Below are positions 4,135-28,480 of a DNA stretch of 64,000 nucleotides, piece after piece; the first letter of the stretch is position 1; every line of letters starts with the position of its first letter. This DNA comes from Mariprofundus ferrooxydans PV-1 (GTDB taxonomy: Bacteria; Pseudomonadota; Zetaproteobacteria; Mariprofundales; Mariprofundaceae): positions 1,186,844 to 1,250,843 of the forward strand of contig NZ_DS022294.1 in the NCBI RefSeq assembly GCF_000153765.1, given 5' to 3'. The position numbers and the translations under genes are program-made. The notes beneath the pieces were generated by a model that saw nothing but the letters and a program-made list of their open reading frames with translations, was not told where the DNA came from and made no database searches.

Positions 4135-5091
4135 ATGCAGACAAGACTCGAACAGTTGCGCGGGATGACAACCGTTGTCGCGGACACCGGCGATATTGAG
4201 GCCATTCGCCAGTGGCGGCCTGTTGATGCTACAACCAACCCGTCACTGCTGCTCAAGGCAGTAAGCCAGCCCGAATATGCCCATTTTCTCGATGAAGCGG
4301 TAACATGGGCCAAGGGGCAGGGCGGTCATGGTTCCCGCCTGCTTGAGGATGCTGCCGATATGCTAGCGGTAATGGTCGGGCGCGAGGTGCTGGATATTGT
4401 TCCCGGTCGTATTTCTACCGAGGTGGATTCCCGTCTCTCTTTCGATGGCGAAGCTACGATGGCCCGCGTTCACAAGCTGATTGACCTCTATGCCGGTCGT
4501 GGCGTTGGTACAGAACGGATTCTGATCAAGATTGCTTCAACCTGGGAGGGGATTCGTGCTGCCGAGCAGCTGGAGCGCGAAGGCATCAATTGCAACCTGA
4601 CGTTGATGTTTTCCATGGCTCAGGCGCGCGTCGCAGCCGATGCCGGGGTGTTTCTGATTTCCCCCTTTGTCGGTCGTATTATGGATTGGTTCAAGGCTGA
4701 AAACGGACAGGATTATGCGGCAGCGGAGGATCCGGGCGTGTTATCGGTGCAACAGATCTACCGCTATTACAAGAGTCACGGCTATGCGACCGAGGTCATG
4801 GGAGCGAGCTTTCGCAATATCGGCGAAATTCTGGCGCTGGCCGGCTGCGACCGGTTGACGATCAGTCCTGCCCTGATGCAGCAACTGGATGCTTCCTGTG
4901 AATCGGTGGAGCGTATGCTGGCGGATGATGGGGGCTGCCAGGCGCGGGAGTCTCCGATGCGAGAAGCTGAATTCCGCTGGCACCTCAATGAAGATGCCAT
5001 GGCCACCGAAAAACTGTCCGAAGGTATTCGTAATTTCACGACCGATCAGCGTAAGCTGGAGGCGCTGCTTAAAGCTCGTCTGGCAGACTAG
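4135..5091 (+). CDS. tal: Transaldolase
   Basis: A 318-residue TalB-type enzyme. It moves a dihydroxyacetone unit from sedoheptulose 7-phosphate to glyceraldehyde 3-phosphate in the non-oxidative pentose phosphate pathway. The Schiff-base lysine is K132 in [12 protein letters not shown], the same number as in E. coli TalB. The family motif DATTNPSLL is present near residue 31. The start at 4135 is chosen because AGGAGG lies just upstream; an earlier in-frame ATG would overlap that site. Confidence 0.95.
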
Positions 5092-5159: not shown

Positions 5160-5903
5160 ATGCCTTTTCTTATTTTTATTCTACTCTTTCTTGCCCCGTC
5201 TCAGGCGTTGGCGATTATCAATGCCGAGGATCTCGACCTCTCCATTCACGAGGATGGCACGGCCGGCAAGGTCGGGTTTTCGCTGAATGGCAACTCCGGC
5301 AACAGTGCCAAAATTAACGGAGAAGGTAGCGGCCGGTTGTTATGGCGGCATGGATCAAATACCGAGATGCTGGTTGGCAGCTATGCCTATGGCAAAAGCC
5401 GCGGGGTGCGGGACACTAATGAGGCGTTTGTCCATCTGCGCCATCGTTATGCACTCAACGATTCGTGGGATGTTGAAGCGTTTGCGCAGGCGCAGCAGAA
5501 TGAATTTGCACGTCTGAAGCTGCGTACGCTGCTCGGCGGAGGCCTGCGCTGGTCCAGTCAGGCGGAAGGCTGGCAGTTGCATGTCGGCCTGGGCTCTTTT
5601 TTCGAGCGCGAATCCTTGCGAGGCAGCAATGCGCCGGCTACCCGGCTCTGGCGTGGCAATGCCTATTTGGGCCTGCATTTCGCCATCAATGATCATGTAC
5701 GGCTGCAGAATACCGTTTATTATCAGCCTGCATGGCGGTATCCTGCTGATTTCCGCCTGCTTGACGATGCGGCTGTGAGTGTCACGCTAAGCGCCGGGCT
5801 TGATCTGCGGCTTTCACTGGAGATGGCGCATGACTCCCGCCCTCCGGCAGGGGTCAGGCCGACGGATATCAGCTACAAGACCGGCCTGGCATACGCATTC
5901 TGA
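5160..5903 (+). CDS. DUF481-type outer-membrane beta-barrel protein
   Basis: A 247-residue protein that starts with a clear signal peptide (hydrophobic run ending in SQALA). The rest is alternating aromatic/polar strands ending in an aromatic C-terminal residue, as expected for an outer-membrane barrel. The strand pattern and length fit DUF481 (YdiY-like) proteins of unknown function. It follows transaldolase by 68 nt and may share its transcript. The ATG at 5160 is preferred to a TTG two codons earlier. Confidence 0.7.
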   Translation: MPFLIFILLFLAPSQALAIINAEDLDLSIHEDGTAGKVGFSLNGNSGNSAKINGEGSGRLLWRHGSNTEMLVGSYAYGKSRGVRDTNEAFVHLRHRYALNDSWDVEAFAQAQQNEFARLKLRTLLGGGLRWSSQAEGWQLHVGLGSFFERESLRGSNAPATRLWRGNAYLGLHFAINDHVRLQNTVYYQPAWRYPADFRLLDDAAVSVTLSAGLDLRLSLEMAHDSRPPAGVRPTDISYKTGLAYAF

Positions 5904-27106: not shown

Positions 27107-27219
27107 TGAGGGTGCCCGCATCGCTCGATTCTCTCCGGCTTCTCTGAATCCGGCGAGGTGATGAAAGGAGGCGACCGGCTGGAAGATCGACCATCGGCAC
27201 CGACAAGGACTTGATGAGT

Positions 27220-27335
27220 CATGCGCTAACTACCGAATAGACCGGTGCATGCGGATCAGAAGTGAGGGGTGATGATAGCTGGGGTCAAGAAAGTGCACGA
27301 AACGAGACCTGAGCCTCAATGCACGGAACATGCCA
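27220..27335 (+). repeat. Leader-like element, copy 1 (related to 28347-28480)
   Basis: This non-coding segment lines up with 28347-28480 over its length. Exact blocks are CGGATCAG (27252-27259) and TGCACGAAAC (27294-27303), followed by CTCAA (27315-27319), with nearly the same spacing in both copies. GTGCA (27293-27297) can pair with TGCAC (27320-27324), and a matching helix exists in copy 2. It sits directly before an attC-like site. A structured RNA is possible, but it matches no family I know. Confidence 0.5.
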
Positions 27336-27340
27336 AGAGC

Positions 27341-27417
27341 GCATAATAAGGCGCTTGTCCGGACGCAAATTACGCTGCGCTTCGTTTGCGCCGCACGCAC
27401 AGCTTTCGTCGTTAGGC
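27341..27417 (+). other. attC-like site A (integron recombination site)
   Basis: The segment runs from GCATAATAAGGCGC to the core GTTAGGC (27411-27417), 77 nt. Its centre is an imperfect hairpin, GGACGCAAA...TTTGCGCC, around a GCTGCGCT middle, as in many attC sites. The left core reads GCATAAT rather than the consensus RYYYAAC and the L' box is degenerate. It may therefore be a decayed site. The core GTTAGGC lies just upstream of the cassette gene. Confidence 0.6.
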
Positions 27418-27437
27418 CCATGAAGGAGAATTGAGCA

Positions 27438-28136
27438 TTGGATAATGGTTATGAGCTAGATTTAAAAATGCATAACTCTAAAGGAATGGCATTTCTTAAT
27501 CGAATGCGAGCGCATAGTTTTAGCCATAACATATTTTCAATGAATCTTCATGAGATAAATGAAGGGTTAAAGTTAATAGAAAACCCTGAAATAGGTATAA
27601 GGCTTATGGCTCAGGATAACAGAGAGGCAGGAGATCAGGCATTTAGAGAAGTTAACCGTCTTTTTCATAACTTGCTAGCGTCAGCCAAAACACTAATTGA
27701 GCATACACGAATTTTTATGGATAAATATTATACAGGCACCTCTATTCATCAGGCGTATTCACAAAAGATTAGAGATGATTATGCCAACGATGAGCTATGT
27801 AGATTTATCCAAGACCTTAGAAACTATATGCTTCATCAAGGCCTTCCCCACTCAGAAATGTCACTTAGTGCGCAACGTGACGGATATATAGAGACAACCA
27901 TAAGCCTTGATGTTGAGAAATTGAAGTTATGGTCAAGATGGTCACCGAAGAGTAAACAATATCTGTTAAAGTCCGGTAAGAAAATAAAGGTCTCAACAAT
28001 CACTGGAGAATATGGTAACAAAATCAATGCGTTGAACGAATGGCTGCATACTCATTTGCATAAATATCACGAGCATGAACTTGATGAATTAAAATCAATG
28101 AGAGATGAGTACATATCAAAGTATGGAGAGGCCTAA
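27438..28136 (+). CDS. Integron-cassette protein, function unknown
   Basis: A 232-residue protein with codon use and base composition much richer in A+T than its neighbours, a sign of transfer. It is rich in His, Lys and Asn, largely helical by composition, with no signal peptide or membrane segment and no domain I recognise. The start is a TTG 9 nt after AGGAG. The TAA stop lies inside the GCCTAAC core of the following attC, the usual arrangement in gene cassettes. No integrase gene is in the window. Confidence 0.75.
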   Translation: MDNGYELDLKMHNSKGMAFLNRMRAHSFSHNIFSMNLHEINEGLKLIENPEIGIRLMAQDNREAGDQAFREVNRLFHNLLASAKTLIEHTRIFMDKYYTGTSIHQAYSQKIRDDYANDELCRFIQDLRNYMLHQGLPHSEMSLSAQRDGYIETTISLDVEKLKLWSRWSPKSKQYLLKSGKKIKVSTITGEYGNKINALNEWLHTHLHKYHEHELDELKSMRDEYISKYGEA

Positions 28137-28199
28137 CCAGTCGCTACACCGACCAAAAACCGCTGTGCGGTTTTCGTCGGGTGAGCGTGGTCGTTATGT
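28131..28199 (+). other. attC site B (integron recombination site)
   Basis: 69 nt from the R'' core GCCTAAC (28131-28137) to the R' core GTTATGT (28193-28199). L''-type AGTCGCT and L'-type GAGCGTGG boxes sit in the expected places. A hairpin pairs CCGAC with GTCGG and AAACCGC with GCGGTTTT around TGT. Size, order of boxes and the overlap with the ORF stop codon make this a convincing attC. Confidence 0.8.
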
Positions 28200-28280
28200 G
28201 CCAGAAAAAATACGGGGCCCAAAGTGAGTCATAATTTCGAAAATGACGGGGTCTGGCATGAGTTATTGAGTTGTTTCGTT

Positions 28281-28346: not shown

Positions 28347-28480
28347 TAAGCTTACAACTTGCGTCCTTGCTGGTCTGGTGTGAACTATACGGATCAGCAA
28401 AGGGGGGAAGATTGATGGCGGCATGGGTAACTAAATGCACGAAACAAGATCTTCGCAGCTCAAAGGTGCAGGCATCGGCC
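28347..28480 (+). repeat. Leader-like element, copy 2 (related to 27220-27335)
   Basis: Non-coding segment related to 27220-27335. It shares CGGATCAG (28390-28397), TGCACGAAAC (28436-28445) and CTCAA (28459-28463) in the same order and near-identical spacing. TGCAC (28436-28440) can pair with GTGCA (28466-28470). It lies in the presumed 5' leader of the GH100-like gene, ending 20 nt before the ATG, so a cis-acting RNA role is conceivable. Confidence 0.5.

Follow-up and report, generated by a model that had tools for sequence, protein, structure and literature searches.

The window, by which we mean the whole stretch of 64,000 nucleotides analysed here (C4:1186844-1250843 of an assembly of 2,992,730 bases that is 99.75% complete), contains a gene that lies between two attC-like sites, with no integrase beside it. 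It is best explained as a chromosomally stranded integron gene cassette, the integrase gene (intI) having been lost or only transiently present, and we put the probability of this reading at about 0.9.

The cassette and its two attC sites

A preliminary description, made from the DNA letters, had reported a 232-codon open reading frame with its stop inside GCCTAAC and an attC-like site on either side, and all of these were found in place. The features are as follows, with R1 denoting the covariance model described in the next section.

27341..27417, + strand: attC1, a decayed attC site (R1 54.5 bits, E 3.6e-11; homology to pTBH13 attC sites)
27412..28193, + strand: integron gene cassette of 782 bp (complementary edges; GC contrast)
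G27411^T27412 and G28193^T28194: crossover points of the cassette
27438..28136, + strand: cassette gene, 232 aa, predicted HEPN-type protein (TTG start, AGGAG upstream)
28131..28199, + strand: attC2, a well-formed attC site with an extrahelical base (R1 39.4 bits, E 2.8e-7; fold z -4.6)

As integron crossovers occur at G^TTRRRY, the cassette is taken to span 27412-28193. The gene had been called AT-rich, in agreement with a GC content of 0.37 for the cassette compared to 0.56 for the flank. The 5′ edge of the cassette, GTTAGGC (27411), is the exact complement (7/7) of GCCTAAC (28131), which contains the stop codon of the gene and forms the R'' box of attC2; complementary ends of this kind are expected if both derive from one circle. 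The border match is perfect in 10 of 12 attC-bearing units, including that of the window (11 units are from this genome and one is from Ferrigenium), and about 5-12% per unit would be expected by chance.

As in other integron cassettes, attC2 has R'', L'', L' and R' boxes, an extrahelical base and a structured bottom strand, and its fold is far better than that of shuffled sequences (none of 200 shuffles reached it). The R'' box of attC1 reads GCATAAT. The site closes with seven bases, GTTAGGC, that form the 5′ edge of the inserted cassette; its left part is the remnant of a lost upstream cassette. We regard attC1 as decayed because R'' has AAT in place of AAC, the stem carries a 3-nt insertion and the site folds no better than its shuffles (z +1.0). 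It shares 91% identity over 55 nt with attC sites in the cassette array of the Thiolapillus plasmid pTBH13. The earlier view of the site before the gene as attC-like is thus borne out by R1 and by this homology, with the qualification that the site is genuine but decayed.

Both sites are recognised by an attC covariance model

R1 is a home-made model rather than that of IntegronFinder, and was built from 14 attC sites, none of them from the window: 10 belong to the pTBH13 array of Thiolapillus brandeum, three to relatives and one to another part of this genome. The consensus fold of the training sites shows what marks an attC, paired R and L boxes with an extrahelical base, and has covarying pairs, and as a control the model recovered seven attC sites in a Vibrio array outside the training set. 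A check with attC covariance models had been proposed for the locus, and R1 accepts both sites at their exact coordinates. Its only matches within the window are 27341-27417 and 28131-28199, both on the bottom strand, which is the recombinogenic one; in a genome-wide search attC1 has an E-value of 5.9e-10 and attC2 one of 4.6e-6. A search of the window with Rfam at the gathering threshold returned tRNA and 6S RNA only, and promoter and terminator scans found nothing.

The genome has no integron integrase and several other cassette loci

The lack of an integrase, first noticed near the cassette, holds for the entire 3.0-Mb genome, in which the TIGR02249 profile found no integron integrase over the cut-off. 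Two weak matches, at C4:737k and C4:1260k, are probably ordinary tyrosine recombinases of the XerC and XerD kind. Among the relatives, intI was found over the cut-off in 7 of 23 genus genomes and 25 of 74 family genomes. A complete integron has intI adjoining attI, an arrangement absent from the window locus.

R1 detected about nine further attC sites in this genome, spread over six other loci.

C4:880-881k: three attC sites, one of them weak (R1)
C3:114558: attC site (R1)
C3:804065: attC site (R1)
C3:992678: attC site (R1)
C3:1318201: attC site (R1)
C3:223-224k: two attC sites

The genome therefore has at least seven stranded cassette loci including that of the window. The description of a lone cassette stands in so far as the cassette is bounded by attC sites and has no intI, but not for the genome, in which at least six further loci have attC. 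In another genome, G012, the first cassette next to an intact intI matches one whole cassette of the C4 array with 90.6% identity over 944 bp.

Orphan attI-like platforms

Four of the six other cassette loci begin at an orphan attI-like site.

G000:C3:992186 (L089): orphan attI-like platform, followed by 1-3 cassettes with attC, without integrase
G000:C3:1316731 (L087): orphan attI-like platform, followed by 1-3 cassettes with attC, without integrase
G000:C4:882227 (L085): orphan attI-like platform, followed by 1-3 cassettes with attC, without integrase
G000:C3:225054 (L142): orphan attI-like platform, followed by 1-3 cassettes with attC, without integrase

These loci (C3:992k, C3:1317k, C4:882k and C3:225k) have in common an upstream region of ~210 bp that terminates exactly at the first cassette edge and is most strongly conserved in its last ~30 nt, with the consensus GATACKTRYRYMTATTAATAWG^TTA. 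A short leader ORF, e.g. MITWQKDTCVY, spans the attI-like site in most copies, and we take it to resemble ORF-11 of attI1. With a sequence model of the attI-like site (R2), we found 28 sites in 16 of 74 family genomes, although the weakest matches, with E near 0.001-0.01, may be due to chance; five of the sites are in this genome, four of them strong and one weak. An attI-like site was also sought within the window and none was found. The attI of the canonical intI-bearing integrons in G010 and G012 is of another kind.

The same type of site adjoins integrase genes in two relatives. In G034, it fronts an IntI that is intact and extended at its N terminus, and an attC lies behind; in G002 it adjoins an intI truncated after ~57 codons.

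G002:C11, L050 5489-5716: N-terminal part of a truncated integron integrase of the N-terminally extended type, MDKIHAIAETYRPFLL..., immediately beside the attI-like site

We take the orphan platforms as attI sites whose intI was lost, and the presence of attI beside intact or truncated intI in the relatives suggests that there were once several integron platforms, which have since lost theirs.

Some further observations were made at these loci. L148 (G034:C41) and L104 (G004:C96) encode a lineage of integron integrases whose N terminus is extended by ~120 residues; at L104 1-1000, the 5′ end of the integrase gene lies in an inverted duplication around an attI-cassette unit, which may be an assembly artefact. 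Upstream of one orphan attI there is a near-perfect duplication of 129 bp (97%; L085 4469-4596 and 5397-5525).

A proposed history of the locus

We propose that an IntI, since lost from the genome or present only transiently, would have opened attC1 at G^TT, and that a circular cassette would have inserted into attC1 at that cut. The empty attC1 would have read ...TTTCGTCG^TTATGTGCC... before the insertion, and its old right half (28194-28199, TTATGT) would now end attC2. The old attC1 would have decayed after the insertion and, without IntI, the cassette would now be fixed. Insertion into attC1 is suggested by the half-site GTTATGT, which resembles the usual partner of a GCATAAY-type R''; by inspection, the R'' of attC1 pairs equally with its old and its new R' partner (5/7 each), and these counts do not prove the insertion.

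One alternative is that there was never a resident integrase to lose, and that the attC sites and orphan attI sites are non-autonomous and were served in trans by the IntI of a plasmid or a transient integron. This would account for the common ~210-bp platform of the four attI loci, with its similar left end and no detectable relic of intI, for the similar platforms in relatives that mostly have no adjoining integrase, and for the cassette common to this genome and the intI-bearing G012. The truncated intI N-terminus in G002 and the intact intI in G034, both at the same attI type, favour loss, and the platforms of this genome are only ~68-91% identical to each other and hence old, which speaks against this alternative. 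We therefore consider this alternative possible, if rather unlikely. A broader version, which we regard as somewhat more doubtful still, is that orphan attI platforms (attI, short leader ORF, 1-3 cassettes and no intI) are numerous in the genus and would work as non-autonomous mini-integrons. An integrase that only some of the relatives possess would load them in trans, and cassettes would also spill over to solitary sites like that of the window.

The insertion of cassettes at non-classical attG sites has been described (Loot et al. 2024, as reported in PMC11023631) and, in the account given there, also places cassettes outside the integron platform. The window cassette could likewise have entered an ordinary chromosomal attG-like site, attC1 being a chance look-alike. 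The poor fold of attC1 and its non-canonical R'' are compatible with this, and the cassette at C3:114558, which is preceded by neither attI nor attC, may itself be of the attG-like kind. The R1 E-value of attC1 and its 91% identity to the attC of a cassette array nevertheless make a look-alike very improbable, and the target in the window would have been an attC, unlike in the attG insertions. That both sites are unrelated inverted repeats or terminators around an AT-rich gene acquired otherwise, as its composition and a nearby transposon end might suggest, can be dismissed as extremely improbable, since it is contradicted by correct-strand covariance matches and complementary edges at both ends of the cassette, terminator-like sites were not found, and the homologues of the gene are themselves cassettes.

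The cassette protein is a likely HEPN RNase

The stranded cassette encodes a protein that had been described as having no recognisable domain, a view that we revise. It contains an RNxxxH motif (R128-N-Y-M-L-H133), of which R, Y and H are invariant in four homologues, with either N or S following R (R-[NS]-Y-x-x-H); the Vibrio homologue has RSxxxH. A survey of the HEPN superfamily gives its motif as Rx4-6H with a polar residue after R, as is found in the cassette protein, and lists an 'integron cassette HEPN' family (PMC3710099).

Pfam, PADLOC and NCBIfam gave no significant family for the protein, while a PHROG of unknown function matches it (E 1.2e-7). The AlphaFold2 model has a pLDDT of 88.8, and its best matches among solved structures are HEPN toxins, with Z-scores of 9.6 to 9.1, where a Z-score below 13 can arise by chance in helical proteins. 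The Vibrio integron cassette HEPN protein 3jrt is also among the structure matches (Z 8.1). The protein resembles the 'integron cassette HEPN' family, of which 3jrt is the type (PMC3710099), in its RNxxxH motif, helical fold and location on a cassette, but has no sequence match to 3jrt; a search of solved structures by sequence returned chance matches only. Judging from the motif and the predicted fold, it is likely a HEPN RNase, which would be of the toxin or phage-defence type.

The nearest homologue, from Candidatus Ferrigenium straubiae, is 45% identical. It is a lone cassette too, because it has its own attC at 5718-5817 and a matching 5′ edge, GTTAGGT, at 4967; its flanks are presumably a glycogen-synthase-like ORF and a RecQ-like ORF, as named by reading. 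The Vibrio homologue lies inside a cassette array and has an attC after it, and further homologues occur on one actinobacterial plasmid and two viral contigs. The cassette-borne homologues, together with the covariance model and the border complementarity, uphold the original reading of the gene as an integron cassette. The family thus has cassettes in three distant bacteria, and is a candidate for a HEPN gene of defence or toxin type that escapes the family libraries now available.

Relation to known systems

Clusters of attC sites lacking an integron-integrase (CALINs), as defined in IntegronFinder 2.0, and single attC sites are already known (PMC9024848). Like a CALIN, the window locus lacks intI and has a cassette gene flanked by two attC sites, which lie 790 bp apart; it just reaches the two sites that are the threshold for reporting one. 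It differs in the decay of one attC and in belonging to a genome with several loci of this kind, of which four are headed by an attI-like site. The pTBH13 array likewise has attC sites of the attC1 sequence type, but it is a plasmid array of about ten sites, and no cassette shared with the window was found. A literature search of incomplete coverage found no paper on integrons in this bacterial group, nor on orphan attI arrays. The window feature is accordingly a CALIN, an already known kind, and the scattered attI platforms without integrase are the less ordinary part; it is this multi-locus pattern that deserves specialist attention.

The window cassette illustrates cleanly what is left over once an integron loses its integrase. 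In relatives, the states run from an intact integron (G034, same family) to a truncated intI beside attI (G002, same genus), and in this genome from orphan attI with cassettes to single cassettes and a decayed attC. Such a series allows integron decay or scattering to be tested in environmental bacteria.

Flanks of the cassette

The cassette lies between a PAS-domain gene upstream and a glycosidase-like gene downstream. No empty site for it was found in the genomes examined, because the flanks are not syntenic there: the neighbouring genes in G009 and G016 are in other orders or at contig ends, and the neighbourhood is rearranged in the relatives. An empty-site search for the C3:114558 cassette found none either. 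We also looked for an upstream cassette ending in attC1 and found none, as no 5′ edge matches and no plus-strand ORF reaches 60 aa in 27107-27341. Two repeats were noted outside the cassette.

28243..28277, + strand: solitary copy of a genus-wide dispersed repeat of ~30 bp, just after attC2; also in L049
27245..27330, + strand: diverged leader copy; the other copy is at ~28387-28460, before the glycosidase gene

The dispersed repeat, located between attC2 and the glycosidase gene, is the end of an IS200-like/REP-associated transposase element. The two leader copies form an imperfect direct repeat that brackets the attC-cassette-attC block.
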